64,000 bases of DNA. Origin: Auriscalpium vulgare. Taxonomy: Eukaryota; Basidiomycota; Agaricomycetes; Russulales; Auriscalpiaceae. Positions 4,590-64,000 of the stretch are shown here, in pieces. The notes under the pieces were generated by a model that saw only the letters and a list, made by a program, of their open reading frames with translations, was not told the origin of the DNA and ran no database searches. The DNA is taken from assembly GCA_019915015.1 (NCBI GenBank), contig JAHBBC010000035.1, positions 62,001-126,000 of the forward strand, written 5' to 3'. The position numbers and the translations under genes were made by a program. The first letter of the stretch is position 1, and every line of letters begins with the position of its first letter.

Positions 4590-5966
4590 TGATACGCCTG
4601 GTTCTGCGGTGTGCGGAGATCTCACTTCAATTTTTGAACTTTCGTCAAGTCGAGAGTTTCGCTTCGGAGTCACCTGACTTCGGAACTTGGCCAGCAGTTT
4701 CCGAGGTTTCAACCCAGTCACTTCCGAACTTTCCGAAGTCACGTGACTTCGGATTCCGAACTCGCGCCGGTCTCGGCCCGCTAGCACAGCCTCCACGGAT
4801 CTTTCCGAAGCGCCCGCACGTGATTCGGTCCAGACTTCACAAGCCCATCATCATCAGACACGCCCCAAACGTGATCCAGAGTCAAAACACTCACAGATTG
4901 TTGGGCTATGTCGCATCTAGGCCATATCCACTCCAGAACATTGCCCCCTCGTTCCCAGTATTGTCCCCTCCATTCCGACCCTACCTCGAGCCCTCCAGAT
5001 GTGGTTCGCTGCGTTTCTAGCTGCGTCGAACCGCTATGCAACGCAATACTTCGGAACTTCGGACGATAGCCGCAGCGACTTCGGAACGTGTTCCGAAGTT
5101 AGGCGCACATTCCCACTGTGGAGTCCCTTATGTTTCATTGTCTTAGGTTTCATGACTACTCTTCTCAGGCTTCCTAGCAATGGCGTTCGACTTACCGTTT
5201 GCTTGCGACTTACTCATTTCTTGTGATCTTGACCCACTTACTTCGTGTTTCGTTCTACTTATGCTCTTGTTTGTTCGCACGGTTGTATATTACTTCGGAC
5301 TCACTCGTAGTATATATAGGACTTGTCAGTACGATATTCTGCATCATATCATATGCCCCCTTCTTCCCCCTCATAGTGAGACTCACGCTAGAGACCCTCC
5401 TCGACCTCTCGCATTGTCAAAGCGTTTCTGACTTTGCACCTTTCGACTTCGACTTCGACTTCGCCTTCGCCGCACGCCGCACGTATAGTATTTGACTTCG
5501 ACTTCGGATCTCGACTCCGACTTCGACTTCGCCTTTGACGCACGTATCGTATTCGCCTTTCGTACCCTCCTTTGTCATTCAACTTCGACTTCGACTCCAT
5601 CCTCGACCCAATCACTTCGGCACTTCGGCTCCATCACTTCGGCACTTCGGCTCCATCACTTCGGCACTTCGACTCCATCACCTCGGCACTTCGGAACCAC
5701 GGCATTCAACTTCGACTTTGCCTACGTTGCACAACCACTCGACACCCCGCAGATCGTAACATCCCCACACTTCCTCGTCCTTCCTAGTTTGGATCACTCC
5801 CGAACTCACTGCTATCACGCTACAACCACCCCATTCCCACTTCGGAGACGCTCCCGGAGACTTCGGGACCACTGACGACTCGCCCCTCACACAACGGTAC
5901 CGTGCACTGTGCTCTAGGGATAGGTATACAAGACATTACCGCCCTACTACCGGCTGGTACCCATCA
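4590..5966 (+). repeat. 5' LTR of element B
   Basis: It begins TGATACGCC and ends CCATCA. The sequence is rich in ACTTCGGA words and contains a 22-bp perfect palindrome centred on CACGTG (4732-4753), a TATATATAG box near 5311 that probably drives the element, and a run of CACTTCGG repeats (5615-5695). The only difference I could find from the 3' LTR is T versus C near 5090/8432. Confidence 0.93.
4732..4753. promoter_or_regulatory. 22-bp perfect palindrome centred on CACGTG in the LTR
   Basis: The arms TCCGAAGTCAC and GTGACTTCGGA are exact reverse complements. CACGTG is the E-box type site of bHLH factors. The same design occurs in the LTR of element C at 52411-52426 and 52477-52498, with different but still self-complementary flanks. 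Confidence 0.75.
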
Positions 5967-5970
5967 TTAT

Positions 5971-5989
5971 TGGAGCCCACCGCGAGGGG
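5971..5989 (+). other. Primer binding site of element B
   Basis: TGGAGCCCACCGCGAGGGG lies four bases after the 5' LTR. The same string occupies the same place in element A. It primes minus-strand DNA synthesis from a tRNA 3' end. Confidence 0.75.
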
Positions 5990-6181
5990 ACCAAGTCAGT
6001 ATTCCTCCGAAGCCCTCGGACGTGTCTACTCCCTTTGATATAGGTGTCGCATCTCCAATCAACTTCGGATTTCGAGCACTCGATCGCAACAATCATCCGA
6101 ACCTAGGCCCGATACTTCGCCTCCACACGCCTCATCCCTTCCACATCCCATTCACTTCGCCTCCTTCGCATCCCTTGTCTA

Positions 6182-7931
6182 TTGATGGCCTCGTATATGC
6201 CCCCTCGCCGCGCACGAACTGCACCGACGTTCGATCCCAAACAGCCCCGTAGGTTCTTCTCCGACCTCGAGAAGCTCACCATGTCTGCGAACATCACCAG
6301 TGATCGCGCCAAGAAAGATTGGGCACAGAAGTACGTCGAACTTGACGAAGCTGATTTGTTTGACGCGATGGAAGTGTTCTACGGTCCTGGTAACTACGAC
6401 GACTTCAAGGAAGCAGTCGCGAACCTCTACCCAGGAGCCGAAGAAGACATCCGAAACTTCCGAACCATTGATCCAATTATGTTCGACATCGCCCCAGCCG
6501 GAGGGCCTCCAACTTCGCTCGTTTCCGAACAAATCGAGGCTATTGACGCAGAGTTGGCCTGGCTGCGCGAGCAACAGGCTCTCGAACAAGAGTATGATGG
6601 CATTGCAGCAATGCACGAGCCATCCGAAGTATTCGACACCGTTCCGAACCTCTGCTATGTCACCCCCGTTCCTGTCCCGCTCACATCTTCCCATCGTCGC
6701 GAACCAGAAGACTGCAACATGACTTGGGTCACCGTTTGCTTCGACGCTTCGGATCCAGCGTTCGCAAGTGAGGCACAAGACCCCGCTGCCACGTCCTCGC
6801 CTTTGGAGCACTTCGCAAGCGCCCCGGAGCTTCGCTTCGCACCCATTGCACTGCGTACAACCATTGAACAAGTCCCGAACCAAGACGCAGAGATACGCAG
6901 CGACGCGAACGACACCATCCCACTCACTCCACACCTCAGAACATTTCCGAGCTACCGAGGAGACGACGCACTACTCGTACAGGACATCCGAACTACCATC
7001 CCCAACTTCGACACACTTCGCCCCATTCCCAGTGACAGCTACAGCCGCATTCCAATCGAACACTCGCAGTTCAACGTCTCGACGTTCATCATGCCCCGCA
7101 TCATCGACAAGCACCTCTCCAACCTCTTCCGAACTTACCAACGCATGTTCGACACTGGAGGCATGTTCTCTGGTACGAAGTCGATCCTCGTCTCACACGA
7201 ACTCATCATCCTTCGTCACATCCTCTCGACTGGCGCGCACGACTTGCCTCTGTGGAACTTCGGATCACTTCGCAACTTCGACTTCGTCTCTCCAGCAATT
7301 GGCCACACTTCGACTTCACGTGGCATTGCGGGCAGCAATACCATCGTTCATAGCAACCCAGCGAAGCCGATGAAACACTGCTACAATTGTTTCGGACCCA
7401 GTTCGCTTGGTTTTCGAGCACGCAGCTCGACTCTGCCAACCTTCGAGTTAGGAAACTTCGGATTCTTTCGTGGACTTCGGACGCCTCACATCCTTAGGAA
7501 TCACATCACAGACATCGACCTTTCCTCCGACCACAGCATCTCGCACACCACAGCCGTCGCATCGACAGAGGAGTTACAACTTCGTCGCATCAACTTCGGA
7601 GTATTCCTAGGCTTCACGTCCCTCTTCCTCGCGTTCGATCGTCGATTCCCACGGTACTTCGGAAGTACCGCGCCTCCGCTCGACCTCTCAAACCAACATC
7701 CTGTCTCAACGCATTCCTCCGACACTTCGCGTTTTGCACATGGACGCATCACCATGACTCGCATCTTCCTCTTCCACCACGACGCACCCATCATCCTTCG
7801 CGACTTTGCCAAACTACTTCGGATCTTTGCCACATCACTTCGGAAACTCCATATGGCGCAGCTCGGAATCCTCGCGCACGTCGCGTGTTGGGCTCTGACC
7901 GTGGACGGTCAGTATCAAAGTATGGAGGAGG
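6182..7931 (+). pseudogene. Gag-like remnant protein of element B
   Basis: The frame opens at 6182, directly after a 215-bp leader, and runs without a stop through the internal region into the 3' LTR (formal stop at 8362, 726 codons). Residues 10-95 match the gag core of element A (PTFDPKQPRRFFSDLEKL, LYPGAEED). The rest is not gag: it contains a shrunken reverse-transcriptase piece around 7090-7230 and long Ser/Phe-rich stretches. No zinc knuckle is present. It could still supply a gag-like particle function, but the absence of an RNA-binding knuckle argues against it. Reading into the LTR is probably fortuitous. Confidence 0.6.
7895..7931 (+). promoter_or_regulatory. 3' polypurine tract of element B with upstream hairpin
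   Basis: An inverted repeat CTGACCGTGGACGGTCAG (7895-7912, 8-bp stem) is followed by 11 bases and then GGAGGAGG directly before the 3' LTR. The polypurine tract primes plus-strand DNA synthesis. The same hairpin, 11-nt spacing and tract occur twice in element C. Confidence 0.8.
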
Positions 7932-9308
7932 TGATACGCCTGGTTCTGCGGTGTGCGGAGATCTCACTTCAATTTTTGAACTTTCGTCAAGTCGAGAGTT
8001 TCGCTTCGGAGTCACCTGACTTCGGAACTTGGCCAGCAGTTTCCGAGGTTTCAACCCAGTCACTTCCGAACTTTCCGAAGTCACGTGACTTCGGATTCCG
8101 AACTCGCGCCGGTCTCGGCCCGCTAGCACAGCCTCCACGGATCTTTCCGAAGCGCCCGCACGTGATTCGGTCCAGACTTCACAAGCCCATCATCATCAGA
8201 CACGCCCCAAACGTGATCCAGAGTCAAAACACTCACAGATTGTTGGGCTATGTCGCATCTAGGCCATATCCACTCCAGAACATTGCCCCCTCGTTCCCAG
8301 TATTGTCCCCTCCATTCCGACCCTACCTCGAGCCCTCCAGATGTGGTTCGCTGCGTTTCTAGCTGCGTCGAACCGCTATGCAACGCAATACTTCGGAACT
8401 TCGGACGATAGCCGCAGCGACTTCGGAACGCGTTCCGAAGTTAGGCGCACATTCCCACTGTGGAGTCCCTTATGTTTCATTGTCTTAGGTTTCATGACTA
8501 CTCTTCTCAGGCTTCCTAGCAATGGCGTTCGACTTACCGTTTGCTTGCGACTTACTCATTTCTTGTGATCTTGACCCACTTACTTCGTGTTTCGTTCTAC
8601 TTATGCTCTTGTTTGTTCGCACGGTTGTATATTACTTCGGACTCACTCGTAGTATATATAGGACTTGTCAGTACGATATTCTGCATCATATCATATGCCC
8701 CCTTCTTCCCCCTCATAGTGAGACTCACGCTAGAGACCCTCCTCGACCTCTCGCATTGTCAAAGCGTTTCTGACTTTGCACCTTTCGACTTCGACTTCGA
8801 CTTCGCCTTCGCCGCACGCCGCACGTATAGTATTTGACTTCGACTTCGGATCTCGACTCCGACTTCGACTTCGCCTTTGACGCACGTATCGTATTCGCCT
8901 TTCGTACCCTCCTTTGTCATTCAACTTCGACTTCGACTCCATCCTCGACCCAATCACTTCGGCACTTCGGCTCCATCACTTCGGCACTTCGGCTCCATCA
9001 CTTCGGCACTTCGACTCCATCACCTCGGCACTTCGGAACCACGGCATTCAACTTCGACTTTGCCTACGTTGCACAACCACTCGACACCCCGCAGATCGTA
9101 ACATCCCCACACTTCCTCGTCCTTCCTAGTTTGGATCACTCCCGAACTCACTGCTATCACGCTACAACCACCCCATTCCCACTTCGGAGACGCTCCCGGA
9201 GACTTCGGGACCACTGACGACTCGCCCCTCACACAACGGTACCGTGCACTGTGCTCTAGGGATAGGTATACAAGACATTACCGCCCTACTACCGGCTGGT
9301 ACCCATCA
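7932..9308 (+). repeat. 3' LTR of element B
   Basis: It is a copy of 4590-5966 with one visible substitution. The CACGTG palindrome recurs at 8074-8095. Its first 40 bases after TGATACG still resemble pol coding sequence of element C (see findings). Confidence 0.93.
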
Positions 9309-47087: not shown

Positions 47088-47220
47088 TAGCGTTGCGGGA
47101 AAAACTGAGTTTTTCCCCGAAAAAGTTTTTCCCCGGTAATGTACCTGTATAGTACCGGTACCATACCTGCCCTGCCCTGGCCCCCAATATACCGGTACAA
47201 TACCTCCAGCACGTGATGTG
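47088..47220 (+). repeat. Left terminal inverted repeat and subterminal motif zone of the hAT element
   Basis: An 18-bp terminal repeat (one mismatch to the right end) is followed by an A/T-rich stretch and GTACC/ACCGGTAC motifs up to CACGTGATG at 47211-47219. The zone lies directly upstream of the isochorismatase-fold gene and may act as its promoter. Confidence 0.8.
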
Positions 47221-47517
47221 TGTCGGCCCCTCCGGCGCCCGGCGCCGGCCCATGAGCCATGAGGCTCGCAGCCTCGCACGCAGACATGGCCGGCAGTCGT
47301 AAGGTGGTTGTGCAATGCTACGCGGATGTTTAAGGAGGTATTAGACACATCCCGCCTCGGCATGGGATAGTTGCAAGAGTGTTGTATGCAGCACGTGTGT
47401 ATGATCGACCCGTTGCTGTGATCGACATTTACACTCCGTAGTGAGTGACTAAATGAGGGCGCAATCTTCACCTTCGACACTGGCCTAGCACATTTTGCCA
47501 ACCCTCAAAACTGTCAA

Positions 47518-50500
47518 ATGGCGGACGACGAGGTCATCCACGACATCGACTCATTTCAAACTCTGGGTGATATCCTCAAAAGAATACCCATTCCCGACGA
47601 CATTAACATGTCCTACTACCCACACCAGCCCTGCGCAATGCCGATATCCAGATTTCCCTGTCCCACCGGAGGCGAACGCGCCGTCTCTGCTCCAGCAGAG
47701 CACACTCTTCTCGAAGGGCCAAAGCTTCATAACGGCCGCAAATGCAATGGTCCTGCTCTCTAGGCCGATGCCGCCGCACACCGAGGTGTTGGAAATCCTG
47801 CAAAACCGCGTCAACCCCGCCCTAGAGACAGGCTATGCTTGCCTGGGCTATCCTGTTCAAGAGTCGGTCACTCAACAAACACTCAAAACCCCGATGTGGG
47901 TTCTCACCTACTGGTACGAGGTCCGGCGCATACTCGCTGCCAAGGCGCGCCTTTCTCTGGCCACTGCGTGGTTGAAGACTTGGACCGAGGGCTTGCTCAA
48001 CGACGAGGTGAAGTCCCTTGCTGCAGACACGTCAGCACTCCTCGACGACTGGCCATGGGACGTACCCCTCCCAACGACGATGGGCGTCGATCCAAAGACG
48101 CTTACATCGTACTGTGGTCGGCGTTGGCTGGCGGCGGAGCATATGGATCAGCTGGGGATGCTGCTAGGTCATCGTCTGCAAAGACAAGGCAAGCCGGCAT
48201 GTATACTGCCGAGTGCGGCATCAGTCAAGCTCATTGACACGTACCGCAACCGCGCACGACTCAATGCTAGCGGAACATCTTACCAATCAATGCGCGGCAT
48301 CACTCCCCTACGATTGGCTGGCTCGCAGCTGCAAGATGGATCACTCAAGGAGGTTGGAATGACGATCGGGGTGCGGATCGATGGCGCGGATGTGCTCTTG
48401 CCAGCAGCCGTACACGAGACAAATCACTGGGTGTCCATTGCGGTCAGCGTAGAGCCACACACGGCTTTCTATGCTGATTCTCTTGGACGGAAGCCGCCCC
48501 GCGAGCTGTTGGAGATGATAGAATGGTGGTTAGGACAACACGGAGCGACTGGGCCGCTTTCACTCAACGTGTTACCATGCACCCACAGCTCGACAGCTTC
48601 TCCTGCTCTGTCCTCAGCCACAATTCTCTTGCTCACCATCTCATCCCCGACGACATCCATCTCCTCTCGGATACAGACTGTGTCGTGCAACGCATTCGAC
48701 ACCTTGCTGACAGACATGGTCAGTGCGCGCTCAGCTTCACTTACTTGCGGACTCGACTCACCGACAGTGCAGGACAGTCTCAAATACAAGTCCAATATGC
48801 TAGCGCCTGGCATGCTTATACGGGCAAGTGCGCACACATCGGCGTTCACGAAGCCGCAGTTATTGAGTCTAGAAGGCGTCGTTAAGAGGCGACTGAGTGT
48901 AGCCACCATGTCACGCCACTCACCGTGCCAGCCAAACGCACGAAGAAAAATGCCGCTTCGAAAGGAAAGGAACCGGCGGAGAGTTCCGGCAATGCGGGGA
49001 GCAAGCAGCAGTGGGACGAGGTCTTCAAACCGGCGTCGTTGAATCTGCATATTGCTGGAACGTCAACTGTAAGTGCCCAAAGAGGTTGTCAGCGCGCGAC
49101 AGCAGTAAGTAACAGAAGCTTTGCTTACAGGTTGCAAAGCGTTCGGGCGGAAACACAGTCGCTACGCACAAGCAGCCTAGTAGTTCACCGTACTGCAAGA
49201 CCAGCAGCTCGATGAACAGAAATCAGATGCCGAGGAGTTGCGGACGGCGCAGCTCCGTATGTGAACGAGATGGGGGAAGAAGATGGGAGCGACATGGAGA
49301 TTGAGCTTAACCCTGGTGACCTTGTCAAATGGGTGCAGCCGAAGAAGGATGCGCGCCGGGGAGGACGGCCGCCGGATCCTCTGATGGACGCTCTCACCGA
49401 GGCTTGCTATCGCCGCGACAATCCAACTACGCTGCTCTGGCGCTGTGTCGGAGGTCCTGATAACCCTTGCCATCATACTTTCCGACATCGAGCGTTGATC
49501 CGAGTCGTTCGTCATGCAAAGGACTGCCCAAGCTGTCCTCAGAGCTGCGGGAGAAAGTGCACATACATTCAGCTGGAAAGGCACTGTCTGCGCAGGTCCA
49601 GGAGCTCACCAATTCGAAGGATCCATGATGGTTGCGAAGGACTAGGAGCTCAAGATGGAATTGGACAAGATGGGAGAAGCAGATGCAGGCGCCGCGACAC
49701 ATGCGTTCTTTCGGCAAGCAAAGGCGCTTGGGAAGCTCGAGCGTCACAGAAAGCTCGACCTTGCCATTCTTAAACTCATATGCGTCGCGGGTTTGCCAAC
49801 ATATATCGTCTCGCGCCCGGAGTGGAAGGAGATGCTTGAGATTGCCTTACCATCATATGCACCTTCAACCAGAGACAAGCTCGAATATGAAGGCATCGTA
49901 AACGAAGCATCGTGGGTCCGCCGGGAGCAACTCAAGTATCTGCAAGGTCAGGAAGACCTCACTCTCTCCTATGACGGCGGAACTTCGACAGGTCGTGAGT
50001 CCTACTGGACTGTACACGTCTCGACCTCAGACCGTGAAGTATACTTGATGGACACACGGGAGGCAACTTCCGAGTCGCACACTGCACCTTGGATCGTTGA
50101 GAATGTCGCAAGTCCGGTACGTGGGCATTGGAACTTAACTACTTCAGCGATTTCTAACAACTTCGCGCAGATTGTCAATGCCATCGGTCCGTCCAGGTTT
50201 TCCGGCCTGACATGTGATAGCACGGGTAACACGCGAGCCTCGCGTTCCATTGCAATTCTGGCCCTCATGCCCACTGCGCTCAATCTTGCGGATGTTTGCC
50301 ATCACTTGAATCGCACAATCCTTGAGATTAATCTCATTGATGTTTTCAAACCGGTGCGCAAACGTCCACACTACAGCATTAATCAGATCTAATCCGCAAC
50401 CAGATCATCCGTGTGGTGCGGCAGACATAACATTATTTCATACCTCGCACGCTGGACATGCAGCCCTCAAGAAAGCTCGTGAAAAACTAAAGACAGGACG

Positions 50501-51992
50501 CGGCCTGGAGGCTATCGGAAAGACGAGATTCGCAACAATCCCGCTCTCTGCTCGCTCTGTCCATCGGTCCTCAGCTGCGATCAAGAAAGTCATCCGTGAA
50601 TCGCCTAACGGACTTTATGAGGTACAATTGATGGATCGACTAGACGAAATGACTTGCTGACAACATTCGCAGGAAATTGCTGAGTATTTTCAGCCTGCAC
50701 CGGATGATCACCAGACATTCAAGTTCGAGTCTGGTCTCTCCCCGTTCATCGCGGCCACTTTGCCTGCAACAAAGGCATTAGCCTGCCTGGAGGCTCTGGA
50801 GGCAACTGCTTCCGACGTCTATATATTCTGGCATGCTGTTATTCGTGCAACAGAGGACGCCTTTCAAAATCCTAGGCTGTATTTTGACGCTGAGGTCGCG
50901 AACGCCATCCGCGGCATCCTCAATGCGCGACATCGCCAACTCTTTCTGGATGGCAACATAGCTAATAATGCATACCTTGCTGCAGCATATCTGAACCCTG
51001 GTTAGAGCCATTCTTTTGCTTGCATCTCGTCGCTGTCTTATGTGTGCATCAATCAGATCTTATCACGTCGGACCTGTGGCTACCGGAAGGCGAGAAGGTG
51101 ACACTCATTGGTGTTCGGCATCCATCAATTTTCGAGTCCGTTGTCCGCTTCTTAGCCAACATCGGAGAGAAAGAGATCGTTCATGGCCATAAGAAGGCAT
51201 TCTTGAAGTGGGCAAAAAAGGGAAATCATTTACAGCCCAACTTCACAGGGAAACTCTAGCCTATGCTCGACACCAGTTCCCATTCGATCATCCGCTCGAC
51301 GATACGGTTCCGCAGGCGGTCCTTAGTGGTGGAAGGGCCGTGTTGGCTCTGATAATGTGCACATCCTTCCGGTACGTGTTCGTGTCCGTATGATTCACCG
51401 AGCGCTGCCGACTGATGCTGTCATGAATAGCATCTCGCTATCAAACTGTATTCCGTCCGAGTCAACTCCATGCCCGATGAACGGACTGGCTCTACATTCA
51501 CATGGCTTACTCCAAAGCATAGGAATCGGCTATCCGTGCATAACATGTCTGCAATGACTCAAGTCCGACAGTACCACATGTCTAAGAGCAGGTAAGCAAC
51601 CTCCGTTCTTTATTGAAGTACACAGTGTTCCAACCATTCGAGCAGGTGTGCGCGCACACTAATCAATTCCCTTCGGTCAAGTTCTACAACATCGAAAAGA
51701 AGGTATTCCCTCTTCAGAAAACGCACCCGCACCGATGTCGGACGAAGAAGACGACAATGACGTTCAAGGTGAAGACCTGGCAGAACCGTACGAACCTGCC
51801 AATGCTTTCATCAAGATGCCTCACATCAACCTGAGGTCTGCAATTTTATCTGATGTCCTCGCGGAGGAAGCTCAGCTTCCTGCACGTCGGAACCCTGCTG
51901 TCGGAGTCAGTGCAGGTCAGGCTAGGGACGAGAGCATACCAGATTCTGATGAAGAGGACAATGATTTCAGCACAGATGCCTTGTTTCAATAA
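47518..51992 (+). CDS. Ulp1-like cysteine protease fused to hAT transposase
   Basis: From the ATG at 47518 the coding track continues through several exons and some frame breaks to 51992. Order: an N-terminal region (DDINMSYYPHQP, AANAMVLLSRPMPPHTEV); a Ulp1/C48 protease with NHWVSIAV (His, about 48425), YADSLG (Asp) and QLDSFSC (Cys, about 48600); an intron near 49069-49130; a coiled coil; a BED-like zinc finger (WRCVGGPDNPCHHTF...C, about 49435-49530). Then comes the hAT core with RPEWKEMLEIALPSYAPS, LSYDGGT, YWTVHVSTSDREVYLMD, SHTAPWI and LTCDSTGNT, and a C-terminal hATC-like region (about 51250-51560, MPDERTGSTFTW). An acidic tail follows. At least three one-base breaks suggest either decay or sequence errors. 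The transposase would cut and paste DNA; the protease may remove SUMO-like modifiers. Confidence 0.7.
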
Positions 51993-52254
51993 GCCTCCCG
52001 AGGTTTCAGTATGTATTGTACGCGTTGTTACAATGTACGCTCGAGTGCTGCGGCAGCCTTGCAAAAGCCGCGTCTGCTGACAAATCATGACACTTGTGTA
52101 GCAGGCAGCAGCGAATTCGTACAGGTCGGGGCACCTACGGCTAAGCTCTGGCAATTTGGCTATGGATACATACACTGCTAAATCTTCATCTGATGCATTG
52201 AAACCATTCCAAATCCTCGTGTGTACGCGAAAATCGAGCTGCTACTGCGTGGGA

Positions 52255-52371
52255 ACTAAACATCACGTGACTATTTCCCTGGTACGGTACCGGTTTGATA
52301 CCTCCCCGGCTAGGAGCGCCACCGGTACCTTACCGGGGGGATACTGGCCAGAGGTTTTTCCCGCAACACTA
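52255..52371 (-). repeat. Right terminal inverted repeat and subterminal zone of the hAT element
   Basis: It mirrors the left end: an 18-bp terminal repeat and inward GGTACCGGT-type motifs, ending in CACGTGATG (reverse strand). It abuts the truncated LTR of element C. Confidence 0.8.
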
Positions 52372-52560
52372 GACTGGAAACGAGGCCGAAGCGCTGGAAA
52401 GTTCGGAGCAGAAGTCACGTGACTTCGGAACTTTCCGAAGTGGCTGTGCCGAAACGGCGGAAACGACGGTCCGGAGACCAAAGTCACGTGACTTTGGTTC
52501 GAAATTAAAAATCGAAAAGTCGCGGTGGAATCCCCGCTCGACGGGGAATCAGGCGTATCA
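52372..52560 (-). repeat. Truncated 3' LTR of element C
   Basis: It begins TGATACGCC at 52560 (minus strand) directly after the polypurine tract. It keeps two CACGTG palindromes and is cut at 52371 by the hAT element; the remaining LTR is missing. Confidence 0.82.
52411..52498. promoter_or_regulatory. Two CACGTG-centred palindromes in the LTR of element C
   Basis: GAAGTCACGTGACTTC at 52411-52426 and a 22-bp perfect palindrome at 52477-52498 (arms ACCAAAGTCAC / GTGACTTTGGT). Compared with the LTR of element B the outer bases differ but pairing is kept. Confidence 0.75.
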
Positions 52561-52597
52561 CCTCCTCCATACTTCGATAGTGACCATCCACGGTCAC
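52561..52597 (-). promoter_or_regulatory. 3' polypurine tract of element C with upstream hairpin
   Basis: On the minus strand GTGACCGTGGATGGTCAC (stem GTGACC/GGTCAC, 52597-52580) is followed by 11 bases and GGAGGAGG (52568-52561), then the LTR. The outer pair is changed relative to element B on both sides, keeping complementarity. Confidence 0.78.
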
Positions 52598-53137
52598 CGA
52601 GATGAGGGGAGATGTGATCCGAAGGCAAATGTGGCAAGTGATGGGAAACTCGGGAAAAGTCGGAACGTGGAAGCGAAGTCGGAAGCGATGTCAGGGGCGA
52701 GAAACAAAGCGGCGGGCATGTCGGGATGATGATGCGATCATGATTTGCGCCGGGGGCCGAGGCAGAATTGATGAGCCGTGGTCGTGGGAGCGATCGGAAT
52801 GTGGAGGGTAGAGGCGAAGTCGAATTAGGTCGATGACGTCGTGATGATGTCAGATATGATATCATGGTCTAGGCTCTATTGGAAATATACCCAAATCGGT
52901 GTATCTGGTTGCCGAGCGCGTTCGGCTTTGCGTTGCTAGCGTGGGATCAGGGTCGAGGGTCGGAAGATTTTTACGAAGTCGGCGGATGCCTCTTTGTTCG
53001 TCTTGGGGGCGCCTATTTGCCGAACAATGGGAGGGGAAAAGGGATAAAAGGAGGCGAACTTTTCCGTGGTTCGCCTTCAACGTTCCTCCCTTTCCCTTTA
53101 CCTCTCACCTCGGGCGCTCCCTTCCCTAACCACTACC
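52598..53137 (+). promoter_or_regulatory. Promoter and leader of the antisense gene
   Basis: A GGGATAAAAGG TATA-like box lies at 53040-53050, about 90 bases before the ATG, and a pyrimidine-rich leader (CTCCCTTTCCCTTTACCTCTC) runs to the start. The region is retroelement sequence rich in GAAGTCGGA words. No other frame is credible. Confidence 0.6.
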
Positions 53138-55104
53138 ATGTCGGCATCCACGTCCTCCAGGTCCACCAAGGCGAAGGTCTCGCTCCGTGAGATTCACCTC
53201 GGCATCAACGGCCTGCTCGACTCCTTCAACCCGGAGGCGACCGAGAACGCGAAGCGCGCCTGGTGCAAGTCCATCTTGCTCGGGCTTGTAAGTCCTCGTC
53301 GTCTTCGGCTGAAAACCTCGCGCTGACTTCGTCTCTCTAGAAAATGGGTCGGCCGCACCCGCAGTTCCAGGTCGAGCTCGGAGGGTGCTTGGCGCGCCTC
53401 CAGCACTACGCGGACCACCACGGCACGCCTGCGTGGGTCGACAACTCTGACGGCCTGCTGCAGCCGCTGCCTCCAGTAAGTCGCCTCCATCTTTGTTGGC
53501 TTTGCATGATCGCTAACTCGGTTCGTATCTAGAAACGCAGCGCCTTTGAGCTCATGCTCGAAGGCCAGCTCGCCGGCGACGATGTCGAGGTCGACTTTGG
53601 CGAAGTCGAGTACGGACCCGCGGGGGCGGCTATCACCACGTTGCCTGACGCGAAGTCCGAGGGTGAGTCCGAGGTGCCGGGCGAGGAGCTGGAAGACGGC
53701 GAAGTCGCGGACGACGAGCCCGCAGAGGACGAGCTCGCCGACAAGGAGAAGGAGGAGGATCTCGAGGCGAAGAAGACGAAGAAGAAGGCGACCAAGCACC
53801 TCGTCCTCGAGTTGGACGACCCGACTTGGACGAGGGACGCGAAGTGGGGAGCGCAGTACCGGGAGGCCAACGCGCTCGTGAAGACGATCAAGACGGGGAA
53901 GTACAACTACGAGTCATACGGTTCGGTAAGTCGTTCGTCTTTGTGTCCTGGGTTCGGCGCTGACTTCGGCTCATTTTCTAGGTATGCGACTATTGTCGCG
54001 GGTACATCGCGACGCACGGGCACGCCTGCGCGCCGCAGATCGTCAAGATCCAGACGAAGGTGAAGGTGTCGTGCGCCCGCTGTATGATAGCGGTGCACGG
54101 GTGTTACTGGACCAACGGTCCAGTTGTCGAGTCAAGTAAGTTCGGATTTGTCCTGTACGCATTTGAGTCGGAGCTGATGCCTTTGTAACAGAGAAAAAGG
54201 GCAAGACGGAAGATTTGGGCCTCAAGCGCGTGCCCGAGGCCTCGCCGGACCATGACGACGATGTCGTGCAGCCGGCGGCGAAGAAGGTGAAGGCGACGCC
54301 CAAGGCGACGCCGAGGAAGGAGACGCGCGCCCAGGCGCAAAGTAAGTGACTTCGTTTGACTTTGTTCGAGGAGGAGAGCTGACCCGAGCCCACAGAGAAA
54401 AAGGCAGTGGCTCCGTCCGAAGTCGACCTGACTTCGGACATCGAGATGGCTGGGCCGTCGCAGACGCAAGCGACGATGCCAGGTAAGAGCACGCTGCTCT
54501 TCCTGCCTAGTCCGAAGTCTGACTCGGAGCAAGACGTAGGGTTCGGGACCGCGGGGGAGGACATGTGGGAGGAGATGGGCAAGGACCTCAAGGGTAAGTC
54601 GTCGCCTGATCGTGATGGCGTCCCGAAGCTAACACGATCCTAGAAACCTTGGTTCGGCCTCCAAGCGCGCCGGTCGCGGGCCCGAGCAAGCCGAAGAACA
54701 AGGGCAAGGCCAAGGCCAAGGCGAAGTCGTCCCGGACGCACCGCGTCATCCCTGTGCCCATCTACGGGAGCGAGGCGAGGGTGCGCGGGCTGCCTCAGTC
54801 CGACCGCTTCACCGACCACACCCTCCCCGAGCCGCCGACGATGGACGACCTGGAGGCCATGGCGAGGGCGATCGACGAAGTGCCGACGGACATCGGGCTC
54901 ACCGAAGCTGAGCGCCACATCGTCCGGTACATCCGGATCCTGAAGGCCGACGCCATGACGCTCGCCTTCCTCGTCCACAACCGCATCATCGACTTGAACT
55001 GGGCCGAGACCCGGTACCTCAACCGGGCGCTGTGGGAGCGATACAACGCGGGCGAACCGGTGACGTTGTACGGCGGGATCGAGGGCAAGGACGAGGAGGA
55101 TTGA
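53138..55104 (+). CDS. Intact seven-exon gene antisense inside Gypsy element C; Cys-cluster protein, 546 residues
   Basis: Exons 53138-53287, 53341-53475, 53533-53925, 53982-54135, 54192-54341, 54396-54593 and 54644-55104 sum to 1641 nt. All six introns are 50-57 nt with GTAAGT donors and AG acceptors, and no stop or frame break occurs. Residues 1-95 form a helical region (REIHLGINGLLDSFNPEA; MGRPHPQFQVELGGCLARL). An acidic stretch follows, then a domain with a putative zinc site: VCDYCRGYIATHGHAC and SCARCMIAVHGCYW. Two basic nuclear-localisation-like strings (KKVKATPKATPRKE; KPKNKGKAKAKAK) and a conserved-looking helical C-terminus (LTEAERHIVRYIRILKADAM) complete it. It is probably nuclear and nucleic-acid related. 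I do not recognise the family. It is not env, gag or pol, and it shares the word bias of the element. Confidence 0.85.
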
Positions 55105-55523: not shown

Positions 55524-57112
55524 CTACTCTTGTTCGGCTTCTGCTTCATCATCAGGGGGCTCTACGTCGCGTTGCTCAACTTCGGGTGGATCTGCTTCGT
55601 CTTTGTTGCCTTGCGTCTCGCTTTGTTCGAGCTCGCGAAGTCGCTGAGTATCTATGTCGATGTCGCGAATGTCAATCTCGATCGGTTCTCGACGAGCGAA
55701 GTAAGGAATGACTCGGAATGCGGCAATGAGGCGATCTAGAACGGAAGCGTCGAGGTCGGCGAGGATGTATGCGCCGCCTCGGTTGCGCGAGATGACAACG
55801 AGGGGACCGAGGTAACGTGGACGCATCTTGCGGTTGAGCGATTTCTCTATCGCGGTGTTGCGCATGAGTACGAGTGTTCCCCGTTTGAAGTCGAAGTCGC
55901 GAATCGTGTGCGAATGTTCGGCTTCAAAGCGTCGAGCGTTCTCGATGCGAGTCTCATAGACTTGGGAGCGAAGTGCCGAGATGTCGGCGTATCGCTTCTG
56001 GAGAGCGATGGCGCGGCGAGCGATGAGATCTGTGGTCGAGAGTATGGAATCTGGAGGGGGTTGGAGATACGTGGCTTCAGCAATGTCCAGGGGAATGAGC
56101 GGGTGACAACCCGTGACCGCGAAGTAAGGCAAACAGCCCATGCGTTTCCGAACTGTGAGGCGCTCCGACCAGAAGACAGAGTGAGCGTGGCGCGCCCATT
56201 GTGACTGGTCTCCGTCCGCTGCTTTGAAGAGTGCCTGCCGAACATCGTAATGTGGGCGTTCGACTATACCGTTTGCTCGGGAGTTGTAGCCGCTGATTCG
56301 AATATGTCGGATGTGGTACAGCGTTTCGAGGTGCTCGAGGGCTTTGATGAACGGTTTGCCGTTGTCGGTGACGATCTCGCTAAGCGAACCCCAACGGGAG
56401 ATGATTTCCTCGTAGAAGAACTTCGCGAGTGCGACAGAGTCCTCTTTCTTGAGTAGACGGAATTCGGGATACGAAGTGATGGAACATCGACCTTGGACGA
56501 TGTAGCGGTACCCGTTCGAGGGCGGCATGTGCATGGTGTCGACGTAGATCTTCGCGAACAAAGAAGCGGGTGGTGCAACGGTCGGGGGTAGGAGGATTTG
56601 GAGTCGTTGACGCTGTTGGCAGATTAGACACGTCCGAACATACCACAGTACGTCGGCTTCGTAGGACGGCCACCAGAAGCGTTGGCCGATGAGCGAGCGT
56701 GTTGCGAACACTCCTCAATGGCCGACTTTGTCATGGCAGTCGATGAGGATGTCGACGCGGCGTTTCTTGTGCGGGACGAGCTTGTGTCCGCCATCTTTGT
56801 GACGACGCCAGAGGCGATCTCTAGTAACGAAGAACTTGGTGGTGTAGCGAACGAATGTGGTGAACTCGGAGTCGGTCATTTTCTCGGGACGTACTGGGTC
56901 TTCTAGCCAATCTCGGACGTAGATGATGCGTTTGTCGGCTTTGTGTGCGGCTTCGGTGCGCGGGATCTCGCCATATCGCAGCACCAGGGGCTCCTCCTCC
57001 ATACTTTGAGTCTGACCGTCCTCGGTCAGTGCGAACACCTCGTGGACGGACGCGGAAGGGGTAGAAGGAGTCCAAGTCGGTTGCTCGTTCATGCTGGCGG
57101 TGTGAGCGATGT
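55524..57112 (-). pseudogene. Integrase part of pol, element C, one in-frame stop
   Basis: The zinc-binding HHCC region (HDKVGH ... CLICQQRQ) is split by a TGA at 56712-56714 where CGA (Arg) is expected. The catalytic core shows IYVDTMHM (first Asp), EIVTDNGKPF (second Asp) and NGIVERPHYDVRQAL (Glu). The C-terminal part has a GPLVVISRNRGGAYILADLDG-like beta domain and an acidic tail. Integrase inserts the DNA copy into the genome. Apart from the stop the integrase frame (55524-56711) is open. Confidence 0.85.
56991..57030 (-). promoter_or_regulatory. Internal copy of the hairpin plus polypurine module (candidate central polypurine tract)
   Basis: Within pol, on the minus strand, CTGACCGAGGACGGTCAG (57030-57013) is followed by 11 bases and GGAGGAGGAGC (57001-56991). 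Hairpin, spacing and tract match the 3' polypurine modules of elements B and C, yet here the sequence is coding (ALTEDGQTQSMEEE) before the integrase. Confidence 0.65.
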
Positions 57113-57592
57113 TCAGGAAGCCGTACAACTCGTCGATCCAGTTGTCGAAGTCGTCGTCTTGAACTTTGGGAGGATCTCCAGGCTACCGAACGCGTCGGGA
57201 GAGACCGTCGGGCCGTGAAAAATTCCTGGGACGTGCCGAAGTAGAAATTTGAAGGCGAGGATGGAGATAATCCAGCGATTGGTGCTCGCAGTGGGGACTA
57301 GATCTGGGTGCTTCAGCATACCGCCAATGGAAAGAGCGTCAACTTCGACGATGAGGTTCCGAAGTCCGATGAGGTAGATCTTCAGCGTCTTCAATGCGTG
57401 GTAGAGACCATAGATTTCGAGCTTCGGCTGGGAGAAGCGACGTTCGCGATCGTTTAGCGATATTGATCCGAACTGACTGTAGTATTGCTTCTTCTTATTC
57501 TCTTCGTCTTCTTGGGCGAGGATGTAGCCAACGGCGATGTAGGAGGTGTCAACGGCGAGGATGACGGCGGCGGGAGATTCGTAGTCGATGGC
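57113..57592 (-). pseudogene. RNase H part of pol, element C, frame break and stop
   Basis: The frame continues from the reverse transcriptase after a TGA (57593-57595). Motifs are AVILAVDTSYIAVGYIL (first Asp), FSQPKLEIYGLYHAL (Glu) and LIVEVDALSIGGML (second Asp). Near 57200 one base is missing in HGPDGLSRR, and a TAG follows near 57184 where CAG (Gln) is expected. RNase H removes RNA from the hybrid and frees the polypurine primer. Confidence 0.8.
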
Positions 57593-59092
57593 TCAAAGTG
57601 CTTCGGAATTGACGAGTGCTTCTTTGAGGTACTCTTGTGCGATAAGCTGCTCGGTACCATACTTGAAGTCAACTCCTTTGCGCGTGAGCTTCGTGAGGGG
57701 CCAAGCGTGCTTCGCGAAGTCCTTGATGAAGATCCGACAAACTCCAACGGTTCCGAGGAACGCGCGAACATCTGAAAGATCTTTACAAGGTCCCCAATTG
57801 GTGATCACGGAGATGGTGGTAGGGTCTGCACGTCTGCCTTCTGGAGTGCAGAGATGGCGAAGAACCGTGAACTCGCGCGATATGAGGATCGACTTTGTAC
57901 CGGAGAAGGTGCCCTCCGAATAGCGCATGTGTTGGAGGATTCGGTTCGTGTTGAGGAGATGTTCCCAGACGAAGCGACGGATGTCTGGGTTCTCTGGTAT
58001 CATCTCATATGAACCGTCCGCGAGCCTGTAGTCCGACTGCGGGCCTTTGATGGGGACATCGTCGATGAAGGGGATGGTATATGTCGGAATCTCTTTGCGA
58101 AGTATGTGGGTGACGTTGTCGTGGAATATCGGGACCGAGTTCGTCCAACCCATCGGCAGGGTGACGAGACGATGCGCGCCGTAGGGGGTTTGGAAGGTGG
58201 TGAAGTCGCGGGATCGTTCGTCGATGACTCGCTCGTCGTAGCCGACGCACAGGTCGAGGATACCACCGCAAGCACGACCTCCGAACTGCTCGGCGAGGTG
58301 CTCTTGGATAGGCGGGACTCCGGAATGTGCGACCGTGACGGCATTGAGCGGTTCGAGCGAGTGGACGATGCGAAGCTTACCGTCCTTCTTCGCGACGCAA
58401 AACCACTTCGATCGATAGGAGGAGTTGGAAGGTTCATAGACGCCTGCATCAATGTTCTTCTTGATCATTCTGCAGACTTCGTCGCGGATGCCTGGGGGTA
58501 TGGGGATGTTACGATCGACCCAAGGGACATGCGCGACCACTGGGATTTGAATAGGCGGAAAGTACTCCTCTTTGAAGCTTCCTCGCTCATTCTCGGCCCA
58601 GGCGAACGCTTCGTTTTGCTCGGAGATGGTGTTGTGGAGAAGGTCGCGCTCGGTCGGTGTCAAGAAATCATAGTTCAGAAGGGCGTCCATGGCGTCGTGT
58701 CGCTCTTGGGTATATCGACCGGTAGGTGTGAACTTCGGAGGATGAGGGTTGAGCGGCGGCATGGAGGTGAGTGGATCGCCGGTGATGTTGCGCTCGATTT
58801 GGAAGCCTTCGGGAAGCGTACCTAGGACGGGTTTGACTTTCTGCCCGACTGGTTTGTACTTCTTTTTGCCGATGAAGGTATCGTGTACGTCGGCGTCATG
58901 TGTCGAAGGCGAAGTCGAGGGCGTGGCCAAGAAAGGAGTCGAAGTGCGCTGGGTGCCAAGATAAGAGTCTGGGGATGTTTGGGAAAGTGAGGGGGATGGC
59001 ATCATCGGTCCTGTGGAACTGGGCGGGGATTGCAAACCGGGACCGAGGGGTTGCGAACTGAGAACGTAAGTACGCGAGGACTGAGGAGACAT
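57593..59092 (-). pseudogene. Reverse transcriptase part of pol, element C
   Basis: About 500 codons are open. The first 180 residues form a Ser/Pro linker; then come VPWVDRNIPIPPGI, MIKKNIDAGVYEPSNSSYRSKWF, KKDGKLRIVHSLEPLN, FQTPYGAHRLVTLPMGWTN and the catalytic FIDDVPIKGP (FIDD in place of the more common YxDD). Thumb and connection follow (FLGTVGVCRIFIKDFA). It ends at a TGA (57593-57595) where CGA is expected. It would copy the element RNA into DNA. Confidence 0.88.
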
Positions 59093-59336
59093 GTTGAAGA
59101 GAGCCATTGCTACGCACGGCAGGCGATTCCACACAAGCATGGGAACTAAAGTTAGGAAGAATATATCATGAATTCGAAAATGTAACAGTTGATACCTGTG
59201 ACAAATTAGAGACATGTTGAAGAGAGCCGTTGCTACGCACGGCAGGCGATTCCACGCAAGCATGGGAACTAAAGTGAAAAAGAATATATCATGAATTCAA
59301 AAATGTAACAGTTGATACCTGTGACAAATTAGAGAT
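59087..59336. repeat. 123-bp tandem duplication upstream of the reverse transcriptase
   Basis: Copies at 59087-59209 and 59210-59332 begin GAGACATGTTGAAGAGAGCC and differ at a few bases. The duplication extends the minus-strand frame artificially to 59263. Confidence 0.9.
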
Positions 59337-59590: not shown

Positions 59591-62500
59591 CGGAAAACGC
59601 GGGTGAGCCTCGGGTGAACCCGTAAAGTGTACTTTACTTCGGACTCCGACGCGCTATTCTTCTCCTTGAAAGAACTGATTCCCAATGTGGAATCAGAACA
59701 GGATATGCTTCAAGAGATGTGTAGGGTGCCTAGGTCGAAAATGTACGAACCTTCAGGAAGTTGTAGACACCCTTCAAGAAAATGTATGGACCCTTCAAAG
59801 GTTTGTAGTCCCCCTTCATGATGCACAGGCATGGCAGTTTGCAATCTTTAATTCGTCTGGACCGCAAATGAAAAGTAATCTTTCTTTATTTCGGTGAGCT
59901 CAAATTTATTTTATATTGCACCTGCCCAGAAGCCAATAGAGCTGTCAATATTCAAATGTTGATATATGTCGCACTCAATAGCACTCAGCCTCTGAGCTGA
60001 CCCAGCAACATTGAGTCTTTTAATATGTATTGTGCTCAGAAAGAATTTAATAATGCTCCGGAAAAACGCGGGTGAGCCTCGGGTGAACCCGTAAAGTGTA
60101 CTTTACTTCGGACTCCGACGCGCTATTCTTCTCCTTGAAAGAACTGATTCCCAATGTGGAATCAGAACAGGATATGCTTCAAGAGATGTGTAGGGTGCCT
60201 AGGTCGAAAATGTACGAACCTTCAGGAAGTTGTAGACACCCTTCAAGAAAATGTATGGACCCTTCAAAGGTTTGTAGTCCCCCTTTATGATGCACAGGCA
60301 TGGCAGTTTGCAATCTTTAATTCGTCTGGACCGCAAATGAAAAGTAATCTTTCTTTATTTCGGTGAGCTCAAATTTATTTTATATTGCACCTGCCCAGAA
60401 GCCAATAGAGCTGTCAATATTCAAATGTTGATATATGTCGCACTCAATAGCACTCAGCCTCTGAGCTGACCCAGCAACATTGAGTCTTTTAATATGTATT
60501 GTGCTCAGAAAGAATTTAATAATGCTCCGGAAAAACGCGGGTGAGCCTCGGGTGAACCCGTAAAGTGTACTTTACTTCGGACTCCGACGCGCTATTCTTC
60601 TCCTTGAAAGAACTGATTCCCAATGTGGAATCAGAACAGGATATGCTTCAAGAGATGTGTAGGGTGCCTAGGTCGAAAATGTACGAACCTTCAGGAAGTT
60701 GTAGACACCCTTCAAGAAAATGTATGGACCCTTCAAAGGTTTGTAGTCCCCCTTCATGATGCACAGGCATGGCAGTTTGCAATCTTTAATTCGTCTGGAC
60801 CGCAAATGAAAAGTAATCTTTCTTTATTTCGGTGAGCTCAAATTTATTTTATATTGCACCTGCCCAGAAGCCAATAGAGCTGTCAATATTCAAATGTTGA
60901 TATATGTCGCACTCAATAGCACTCAGCCTCTGAGCTGACCCAGCAACATTGAGTCTTTTAATATGTATTGTGCTCAGAAAGAATTTAATAATGCTCCGGA
61001 AAAACGCGGGTGAGCCTCGGGTGAACCCGTAAAGTGTACTTTACTTCGGACTCCGACGCGCTATTCTTCTCCTTGAAAGAACTGATTCCCAATGTGGAAT
61101 CAGAACAGGATATGCTTCAAGAGATGTGTAGGGTGCCTAGGTCGAAAATGTACGAACCTTCAGGAAGTTGTAGACACCCTTCAAGAAAATGTATGGACCC
61201 TTCAAAGGTTTGTAGTCCCCCTTCATGATGCACAGGCATGGCAGTTTGCAATCTTTAATTCGTCTGGACCGCAAATGAAAAGTAATCTTTCTTTATTTCG
61301 GTGAGCTCAAATTTATTTTATATTGCACCTGCCCAGAAGCCAATAGAGCTGTCAATATTCAAATGTTGATATATGTCGCACTCAATAGCACTCAGCCTCT
61401 GAGCTGACCCAGCAACATTGAGTCTTTTAATATGTATTGTGCTCAGAAAGAATTTAATAATGCTCCGGAAAAACGCGGGTGAGCCTCGGGTGAACCCGTA
61501 AAGTGTACTTTACTTCGGACTCCGACGCGCTATTCTTCTCCTTGAAAGAACTGATTCCCAATGTGGAATCAGAACAGGATATGCTTCAAGAGATGTGTAG
61601 GGTGCCTAGGTCGAAAATGTACGAACCTTCAGGAAGTTGTAGACACCCTTCAAGAAAATGTATGGACCCTTCAAAGGTTTGTAGTCCCCCTTTATGATGC
61701 ACAGGCATGGCAGTTTGCAATCTTTAATTCGTCTGGACCGCAAATGAAAAGTAATCTTTCTTTATTTCGGTGAGCTCAAATTTATTTTATATTGCACCTG
61801 CCCAGAAGCCAATAGAGCTGTCAATATTCAAATGTTGATATATGTCGCACTCAATAGCACTCAGCCTCTGAGCTGACCCAGCAACATTGAGTCTTTTAAT
61901 ATGTATTGTGCTCAGAAAGAATTTAATAATGCTCCGGAAAAACGCGGGTGAGCCTCGGGTGAACCCGTAAAGTGTACTTTACTTCGGACTCCGACGCGCT
62001 ATTCTTCTCCTTGAAAGAACTGATTCCCAATGTGGAATCAGAACAGGATATGCTTCAAGAGATGTGTAGGGTGCCTAGGTCGAAAATGTACGAACCTTCA
62101 GGAAGTTGTAGACACCCTTCAAGAAAATGTATGGACCCTTCAAAGGTTTGTAGTCCCCCTTCATGATGCACAGGCATGGCAGTTTGCAATCTTTAATTCG
62201 TCTGGACCGCAAATGAAAAGTAATCTTTCTTTATTTCGGTGAGCTCAAATTTATTTTATATTGCACCTGCCCAGAAGCCAATAGAGCTGTCAATATTCAA
62301 ATGTTGATATATGTCGCACTCAATAGCACTCAGCCTCTGAGCTGACCCAGCAACATTGAGTCTTTTAATATGTATTGTGCTCAGAAAGAATTTAATAATG
62401 CTCCGGAAAAACGCGGGTGAGCCTCGGGTGAACCCGTAAAGTGTACTTTACTTCGGACTCCGACGCGCTATTCTTCTCCTTGAAAGAACTGATTCCCAAT

Positions 62501-63450
62501 GTGGAATCAGAACAGGATATGCTTCAAGAGATGTGTAGGGTGCCTAGGTCGAAAATGTACGAACCTTCAGGAAGTTGTAGACACCCTTCAAGAAAATGTA
62601 TGGACCCTTCAAAGGTTTGTAGTCCCCCTTCATGATGCACAGGCATGGCAGTTTGCAATCTTTAATTCGTCTGGACCGCAAATGAAAAGTAATCTTTCTT
62701 TATTTCGGTGAGCTCAAATTTATTTTATATTGCACCTGCCCAGAAGCCAATAGAGCTGTCAATATTCAAATGTTGATATATGTCGCACTCAATAGCACTC
62801 AGCCTCTGAGCTGACCCAGCAACATTGAGTCTTTTAATATGTATTGTGCTCAGAAAGAATTTAATAATGCTCCGGAAAAACGCGGGTGAGCCTCGGGTGA
62901 ACCCGTAAAGTGTACTTTACTTCGGACTCCGACGCGCTATTCTTCTCCTTGAAAGAACTGATTCCCAATGTGGAATCAGAACAGGATATGCTTCAAGAGA
63001 TGTGTAGGGTGCCTAGGTCGAAAATGTACGAACCTTCAGGAAGTTGTAGACACCCTTCAAGAAAATGTATGGACCCTTCAAAGGTTTGTAGTCCCCCTTC
63101 ATGATGCACAGGCATGGCAGTTTGCAATCTTTAATTCGTCTGGACCGCAAATGAAAAGTAATCTTTCTTTATTTCGGTGAGCTCAAATTTATTTTATATT
63201 GCACCTGCCCAGAAGCCAATAGAGCTGTCAATATTCAAATGTTGATATATGTCGCACTCAATAGCACTCAGCCTCTGAGCTGACCCAGCAACATTGAGTC
63301 TTTTAATATGTATTGTGCTCAGAAAGAATTTAATAATGCTCCGGAAAAACGCGGGTGAGCCTCGGGTGAACCCGTAAAGTGTACTTTACTTCGGACTCCG
63401 ACGCGCTATTCTTCTCCTTGAAAGAACTGATTCCCAATGTGGAATCAGAA
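59591..63450. repeat. Tandem array of a 469-bp unit, 8.2 copies
   Basis: Eight full copies start at 59591, 60059 and every 469 bp after that; a ninth stops after 108 bp (63450). Copies are nearly identical: copies 2 and 5 share CCTTTATG where the others have CCTTCATG, and the first has one A less at its start. Each unit begins CGGAAAAACGCGGGTGAGCC and includes CGGGTGAACCCG and TAAAGTGTACTTTA inverted repeats. It is a satellite inserted between protease and reverse transcriptase of element C. The short frames in it (64 and 70 codons) have no start context and repeat only because the DNA does. Confidence 0.97.
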
Positions 63451-64000
63451 CGAGGACGATGCGGCAAACTGGTTCGGAAATGCGTGTTTGGGATCAAGAT
63501 GAGAGTGCTCAGCCGCTAGTGGCTTTTGAGGCGGGGCGGGACAGATATTCTGCATGAAAGAAGGCGCGGAGTGTTCGGGAAGATGTGAGCGTGCTTCGGA
63601 AGCGGTGACGTATGCGTGGCGAACCGCCGACTCGTCCGAGGAGTTGATTTGGGTATAGGCGATGATCCGGACATTGTCTCCTTCACCTTCGATGATCATG
63701 GCGATGGAGTTGCCTTCGTCGACTTCGTCTTCAAAGTCGGGCTTGAGCAATTTGCTCCTCGCGAAACCGATGGTGTCCCCGAGGATATGTGGGGATGACG
63801 AGGCGGTCGCCTGTGTTCGGGTTGCGGATGGTGACCGTCTGGTCCTCGTTCTGGAAGTTGTGAACGATCGACTCGGTGAGGACGTCGAAGGGGCGACCGA
63901 GGAGAATGTCGTAGGCAACGTTCCGCACGATATGAACCTGGAGGTACAATGTCATGCTTCCGAACTTGATAGGAACGTTACGTGCCAGCCCGAGCGACTC
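63451..64000 (-). pseudogene. Retropepsin end of element C, runs off the right edge
   Basis: From the edge: LGLARNVPIKFGSM, VHIVRNVAYDILLGRPFDVL, then NFQNEDQTVTIRNP. ILLGRPF is the conserved C-terminal ILG motif of Ty3/Gypsy aspartic proteases. The frame changes near 63790, continuing as a Ser/Glu-rich linker to 63451, where the satellite array cuts it. Gag and the 5' LTR must lie beyond 64000. Confidence 0.75.

Follow-up and report, generated by a model that had tools for sequence, protein, structure and literature searches.

A predicted spliced gene antisense to pol in a Gypsy lineage of the mushroom Auriscalpium vulgare, a putative nuclear accessory gene under purifying selection

Results

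The stretch of DNA analyzed here, called the window, comprises 64,000 nucleotides of Auriscalpium vulgare (Russulales) and corresponds to C35:62001-126000 of G000, the genome that was searched for copies. It carries a Gypsy (Ty3) retrotransposon with an additional gene, which lies antisense to pol with integrase on one side and the 3' polypurine tract (PPT) on the other. As predicted from the sequence, the gene occupies 53138-55104 on the forward strand and has 546 codons and a stop once six introns of 50-57 bp are spliced out. The gene and pol are convergent, and their stops are separated by 419 bp in the window.

On the forward strand, the splice model places an N-terminal domain in exon 1 (53138-53287) and exon 2 (53341-53475), and an acidic/basic linker in exon 3 (53533-53925). 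Exon 4 (53982-54135) encodes a Cys module at residues 228-269, conserved in the aligned copies, and is followed in the splice model by exon 5 (54192-54341; a basic linker with the string AAKKVKATPK), exon 6 (54396-54593) and exon 7 (54644-55104; the C-terminal domain including the stop), of which homologues were found. Introns 1-3 (53288-53340, 53476-53532, and 53926-53981) are in phase 0 and introns 4-6 (54136-54191, 54342-54395, and 54594-54643) in phase 1, each being supported by the splice model, the alignment of copies and the comparison of subfamilies. All six donors read GTAAGT, and the acceptors are all TAG or CAG. A simple gene-finding script recovered the identical six introns, using a codon table derived from the same gene and thus not independently. 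Re-splicing gave the same model as the initial annotation of the window, which had described a 546-codon gene with six GTAAGT introns between integrase and the 3' PPT. The bias toward the word GAAGTC that it had noted in gene and element was also real, with 5.1 per kb in the gene and 2.8 from integrase to reverse transcriptase, compared with 0.6 in the window at 10-44 kb.

The predicted protein consists of an N-terminal domain, acidic and basic linkers, the Cys module and a conserved C-terminal exon. The module has the pattern C-x2-C-x10-C-x14-C-x2-C-x6-C-x-W, and its six cysteines and the tryptophan were kept in 17 of 17 aligned copies as well as in the aligned subfamilies. The Cys pattern suggests zinc binding, while the basic strings suggest a nuclear location. 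The Zn2Cys6 (GAL4-type) cluster follows the consensus C-x2-C-x6-C-x5-12-C-x2-C-x6-8-C, and the module resembles it in having two C-x2-C pairs, six cysteines and a last spacing of C-x6-C. However, its second and third spacings are x10 and x14 instead of x6 and x5-12, and there was no Pfam zinc-cluster match. Membership of that class was therefore rejected for a module with the spacings x2, x10, x14, x2, and x6.

To locate further copies, G000 was searched with the gene protein and with the integrase, and only the best candidates were scored, so that all copy tallies are lower bounds. Three subfamilies of the gene were distinguished, that of the window being A. In subfamily A, 15 of 18 last exons lay immediately behind an opposite-strand integrase of 95-100% identity. 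The gap was 424-466 bp in 14 of these and 838 bp in C9, for which the integrase was partly matched. The 3' end of an integrase lay within 1.2 kb on the opposite strand for 24 of 26 last exons of subfamily B and for 8 of 11 of subfamily C. Together, 47 of 55 last exons stood behind an integrase. The tally leaves aside C47, which has no last exon, and C17:931588-933104, which lacks it. Viewed from the integrase, the gene was present at 15 of 15 places of 95-100% identity and at 33 of 37 places of 74-78% identity, that is, at 48 of the 52 scored with an identity of 74% or more, at one of them 5.3 kb away. Among the exceptions of subfamily A, C8 has the gene in scattered pieces, and two inverted gene copies (G000:C10:374942-376704 and 385942-387901) represent two of the three last exons without integrase. 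These C10 copies are collinear with the window only to about 55121 and 55148, just beyond the stop, and no scored integrase adjoins them. A stray diverged relative of the gene (L036, G000:C1:2321000-2326000) was also observed, with no scored integrase nearby. Its neighbors, as judged by eye, are a KH-domain (vigilin-like) gene and another host-like gene, and its last exon appears, again by eye, to be frame-shifted.

In both copies tested for this, C2 and C18, the gene lies inside a pair of long terminal repeats (LTRs). The LTRs of C2 are 99.94% identical over 1583 bp (one mismatch) and flanked by the target duplication ACGT, and those of C18 differ by one mismatch and 14 gap positions in 1598 columns, with the target duplication CCGT. 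C2 and C18 are recent, independent insertions that carry the gene with all its introns. In a further copy, C19a, no LTR pair was found in the stretches examined; a transposase-like frame was seen by eye in its gag region. These results indicated that the gene belongs to the element, as had been proposed from the window alone, and that its homologues elsewhere in G000 are mostly likewise antisense behind an integrase. The expectation that an antisense gene would keep its introns through retrotransposition was borne out by the LTR-flanked copies.

The protein is conserved within subfamilies A and B. All 13 full-length aligned copies of subfamily A had 546 intact codons without exon indels, and single-base indels occurred in introns only. 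For the 12 full copies other than that of the window, the mean dN was 0.0106, dS 0.046, and intron divergence 0.072, which gave a dN/dS of 0.23; the partial copies C10a, C4a, C88, and C47, two of the four damaged, did not enter this estimate, and C8 and C70 were outside the gene alignment. The variable sites of subfamily A fell on codon positions 1, 2, and 3 in the numbers 24, 16, and 62. For subfamily B, nine of the 26 copies were examined over exons 3-7 (with L037 as the reference copy and without L046-L056), and all nine were open across 472 compared codons and free of exon indels. Their eight distinct sequences showed a dN of 0.011, a dS of 0.114, an intron divergence of 0.093, and a dN/dS of 0.095, with 11, 14, and 84 variable sites at the three codon positions. 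The comparison of dN/dS across copies, which the initial annotation had suggested, thus demonstrated that the gene is under purifying selection as a family. The integrase was compared over 355 codons in nine A copies, that is, nine of the 12 other full copies, which also served for the diversity measurements below. Its dN was 0.0042 and its dS 0.0138; the ratio of 0.31 was no lower than that of the gene, and its divergence was lower.

The upstream region was measured as nucleotide diversity (pi) among the same nine copies. A nearly invariant block at 52802-53137 (forward strand), the putative promoter and 5' untranslated region of the antisense gene, had a pi of 0-0.0185 per 48-bp bin, compared with 0.077-0.156 in the spacer adjoining the PPT. 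The values were 0.0015 at 52851-53000 and 0.0097 at 53001-53137, as against 0.085-0.093 for the LTR portion and for the spacer that follows the PPT, 0.012-0.041 in exons, and 0.020-0.110 in introns. The block is the most conserved non-coding stretch measured between LTR and integrase. It includes a TATA-like motif, GATAAAAG, at 53043-53050 (forward strand), which is identical in the window and the nine aligned copies. This conservation fits a putative dedicated promoter of the gene, as the initial annotation had proposed from the TATA-like motif; the block may also have a role in the sense RNA.

To compare the subfamilies, gene models for B and C were predicted in this analysis. The hhalign E-values were 1.4e-24 for A-B, 2.1e-15 for A-C, and 4.1e-12 for B-C, at 21-27% aligned identity, and none of 40 column shuffles scored as high in any of the three comparisons. 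By tblastn, the window protein matched the B gene (L031) with 27-30% identity and a best E of 8e-10, and the C gene (L033) weakly (E 0.01). Six introns at matching places, with the phases 0, 0, 0, 1, 1, 1, are common to the three subfamilies. Introns 1 and 3 share their alignment columns across all three subfamilies, and intron 5 does so in A and B, while the others lie nearby in gappy parts. As judged by homology and shared gene structure, A, B, and C are one family. In the protein database, a first search in which only the 7999 candidates sharing most words were scored gave one match, and a masked alignment gave three (P0001-P0003), all from A. vulgare. Two of these proteins are A-type and one is C-type, 66% identical to L033. 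The C-type protein is P0002; since a C-type row was part of the query, the E-value of this match does not prove that A and C are homologous. A seventh intron predicted in L033 is probably false, because P0002 keeps that stretch. The shared intron phases in subfamilies of only 21-27% identity, together with the A. vulgare relatives, point to an old association of gene and element, and not to the fresh capture that the initial annotation had already thought less likely. The A and C types probably predate the split of the species from A. vulgare, a statement to be read with the caution that the source of the window is itself A. vulgare; horizontal spread of the two types may also have occurred.

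In a tree of eight integrase sequences, A, B, and C grouped together (97/97), apart from groups E, F, and G, with an uncertain root and a long branch for D. The integrases of subfamily D, of 58-59% identity, were accompanied in 23 of 25 cases by a different antisense gene, which has two introns and encodes six cysteines. An example is L035 (G000:C18:923500-928100), and 43 similar places were observed. Between D and A-C, hhalign gave a probability of 0.19 and an E of 0.31, with 2 of 40 shuffles as high, and the best alignment placed the Cys module in register. Homology of the D gene to A-C was not supported at this E-value, and a protein database search with the D-gene Cys module gave no relatives. 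Among 13 sequences of the D gene, taken from the 44 matches without L081 (partial) and L070 (the reference copy), the pN/pS was 0.35, a rough value, and three carried frame-breaking indels. As homology to A-C is not supported, both readings stand: an ancestral gene with loss in E and F, or independent gain. In viral contigs, seven stretches matched a pattern, and none was a relative of the gene.

The element around the gene is on the reverse strand. It ends in a 3' LTR remnant at 52372-52560 (189 bp of about 1583, 97.9% matching the end of the complete C2 LTR), which is cut off beside a terminal inverted repeat transposon; the remainder of this LTR was not found in the window. The 3' PPT, GGAGGAGG, follows at 52561-52568, the same motif standing at the LTR start in other copies, and is adjoined at 52581-52596 by a short hairpin (TGACC...GGTCA) similar to one in copies C2 and C18. 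Pol is represented by an integrase piece at 55524-56714 (Pfam Integrase_H2C2, E 4.6e-10; 105 genome matches scored), an RNase H piece at 57113-57592 (Pfam RT_RNaseH, 2.2e-12), and a reverse transcriptase piece at 57593-59296, recognized by eye in a frame without a Pfam reverse transcriptase match. The initial annotation had described three stops and frame breaks in pol; the open reading frame list showed two in-frame stops (56714/56715 and 57592/57593) and one frame change (57113-57182), and a third stop was not confirmed. The assignment to Gypsy follows from RNase H then integrase by Pfam, reverse transcriptase by eye, LTR pairs of the form TG...CA, and 4-bp duplications, the LTR pairs and duplications being those of C2 and C18, since the window copy has a truncated 3' LTR only.

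A tandem array of about eight head-to-tail units of about 469 bp at 59591-63456, found by self-comparison, splits pol in the window copy; the units are mostly 99.7-99.9% identical, which may be an expansion or an assembly effect. A second hairpin-plus-PPT motif, resembling a central PPT, lies inside pol upstream of integrase at 56993-57018 on the reverse strand (C35:118993-119018). At 15 of 15 integrase places of subfamily A, this repeat was seen some 0.28-0.3 kb upstream of the point where the integrase match starts, and its pattern had 43 matches genome-wide and none in the reversed control. The DNA transposon adjoining the truncated LTR extends over about 47092-52367 of the window, with the inverted ends GTTGCGGGAAAAAC; frames resembling a hAT transposase and a Ulp1 protease were recognized in it by eye. 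Furthermore, a short element at 4590-9308 of the window has 1377-bp LTRs that are 99.9% identical and an interior of about 1.97 kb. Its LTR ends are 75-80% related to those of the element with the antisense gene, and with a gag start and a reverse transcriptase fragment, both seen by eye, it is probably non-autonomous.

Discussion

We propose that the gene is an old accessory gene of one Gypsy lineage, and that its product is a nuclear zinc protein regulating the transcription or chromatin of the element. We put the probability of this at roughly two in three. The gene would have a promoter of its own, used by host RNA polymerase II, and its mRNA, once spliced, would be translated into a nuclear protein that carries basic strings and a structural zinc module. 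By analogy with the nuclear accessory proteins of retroviruses and plant retroelements, this protein would most likely act on the element's own transcription or chromatin state, serving the element and not the host. From retrotransposon biology, the persistence of the introns is explained by orientation: the gene is present in reverse in the gag-pol RNA, so that its introns escape the spliceosome and the cDNA hands them on.

Several results weigh against this proposal. Pfam had no family for the protein, the only hit being a sub-threshold DUF3846 with the B protein (E 0.21), and among solved structures no convincing relative was found by sequence (best E 0.41). The gene is not indispensable to elements of this type, since homology detected it at 0 of 27 integrase places of 71-73% identity (groups E and F). 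One place of 67% identity was also without it by homology. The gene-free copies L032 and L034, read directly, have the LTR-start motif about 200-240 bp behind integrase, which leaves no room for the gene. Introns are not always more variable than exons, as intron 5 (pi 0.020) is below exon 2 (0.041). Two partial copies are damaged, C88 by a 1-bp exon deletion and C47 by a stop at codon 224, and the acceptor of intron 5 is changed in C65; the partial copies C10a and C4a show no damage in what remains of them.

The window copy itself gave a further unfavorable result. Its private changes comprised 29 nonsynonymous (N) and 14 synonymous (S) changes, distributed 15/13/15 over the codon positions, where the neutral expectation was 29.7 : 11.9 with 1.3 stops, so that the branch fits neutrality (P 0.29). 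Codons 489, 542, and 544, with multiple changes, were counted base by base, which inflates N, and the label "S544*" is not a real stop. The integrase stretch on the same branch had 3 N : 12 S (Fisher P 0.002 against the gene). Thus integrase was constrained on this branch and the gene not visibly so, which suggests relaxed or diversifying evolution of the gene there. Most of this concerns the C-terminal part, where 17 of the 29 N changes lie; residues 196-275, among them the Cys module, have none. The pattern is compatible with relaxation, with diversification, and with recombination involving another subfamily. With 1.3 stops expected under neutrality, the absence of a stop in the window copy is unremarkable. 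Purifying selection therefore holds for the family (dN/dS 0.23 and 0.095), and the suggestion of the initial annotation that an intact gene beside a broken pol may be kept by selection fails for the copy from which it was drawn, the branch counts ruling out such an inference from that copy alone.

The main rival is that the protein steers integration or counters RNAi or DNA methylation instead of controlling transcription, which we consider unlikely, if the least so of the alternatives. Basic strings and a Cys module would suit any nuclear nucleic-acid or chromatin binder, the absence of the gene from related integrase groups is as expected of a dispensable counter-defence gene, and an arms race would account for its faster evolution, relative to integrase, on the branch of the window copy. 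However, the invariant upstream block equally suits an autoregulated transcription factor.

It is improbable that the antisense RNA is the useful product, with double-stranded RNA from convergent transcription limiting copy number and the frame being incidental. The convergence of gene and pol would allow it, and antisense regulation has been discussed for plant elements (PMC7264820). The excess of variable third positions and the low dN/dS in both subfamilies are nevertheless those of protein coding, exon indels were absent from the 13 full A and nine B copies, and mean intron divergence exceeded dN. Slightly less probable still is a host gene captured by the element, or domestication of the window copy by the host. 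In favor of these readings, the window has an intact gene next to a broken pol, and the relative L036 stands between two apparently host-like genes away from any scored integrase, but 47 of 55 last exons are behind an integrase, the last exon of L036 seems frame-shifted, the branch of the window copy looks neutral, and the three protein-database matches are all from A. vulgare (7999 candidates scored in the first search). A host gene or fresh capture was rejected on the grounds of the mostly element-borne copies and the old gene structure. Finally, long open frames are common in DNA of 62% GC, yet a chance frame or gene-finding artefact has a negligible probability and is ruled out by six introns of consensus form, the intact frame of 13 of 13 full-length copies, purifying selection on A and B copies, and homologues in the protein database.

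HBZ of human T-cell leukemia virus type 1 (HTLV-1) is spliced and encodes a bZIP protein, whereas the window gene has a Cys module. It too is an antisense gene with a nuclear product (PMC11963269), and the antisense promoter of HTLV lies inside the 3' LTR (PMC7264820), while the conserved upstream block here is inside the element and outside the LTR. Positional counterparts are the plant aORF-3R genes, gene23 of Grande and TRP28 of Retand. The window gene has their position, being antisense behind integrase in 15/18, 24/26, and 8/11 last exons and inside the LTRs of C2 and C18, but it is fungal and has six introns, and the word "intron" does not occur in the main text of PMC7264820 or PMC11963269. 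In maize, gene23 is transcribed from a promoter upstream of it and its product is nuclear (PMC7264820; PMC11963269). TRP28 is suspected of binding DNA (PMC11963269); the window protein is without a Pfam match, in a library not checked for a TRP28 model. Among fungi, brtn of Boty (Botrytis cinerea and Sclerotinia sclerotiorum) is listed with the antisense genes between pol and the 3' LTR (PMC7264820) and mentioned in PMC8365987 and PMC4227169. Compared by description only, it is, like the window gene, an additional antisense gene in a fungal Gypsy element. Its hosts are ascomycetes, and Boty-like gag-pol has a chromodomain (PMC4227169), whereas Pfam matched none in the window integrase.

Antisense accessory genes were thus known before in plant elements and ascomycete Boty, and the new case is an intron-rich, selected one in a mushroom lineage. 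The matches listed in the open literature, with subscription papers mostly outside, included no report of a mushroom antisense or multi-intron case, which is weak evidence that none has been described. A wider claim is that an HBZ-like control gene arose independently in a Gypsy lineage of mushrooms. This gene, antisense, with six introns and its own promoter, would encode a nuclear zinc protein. It would have been carried through retrotransposition since probably before the split from A. vulgare (itself the source of the window), and related integrase groups would either have lost it or have never acquired it. We hold the arguments for and against this claim to be evenly balanced.

Such genes resemble spliced host genes and have been deposited as "hypothetical protein" (P0001-P0003), which is a warning for annotation. 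About a hundred copies in one genome (55 A-C last exons and 44 D-type matches), standing beside gene-free relatives, offer material for tests. The gene extends antisense accessory genes from plants and one ascomycete to Agaricomycetes. A retrotransposon is expected to lose its introns whenever it transposes; in this natural case six are kept since the gene is antisense to the genomic RNA, and its protein is under selection. If the wider claim is true, an intron-rich gene would be a permanent component of a retroelement, and the D gene might be a further version in the corresponding position, either unrelated or very distantly related.
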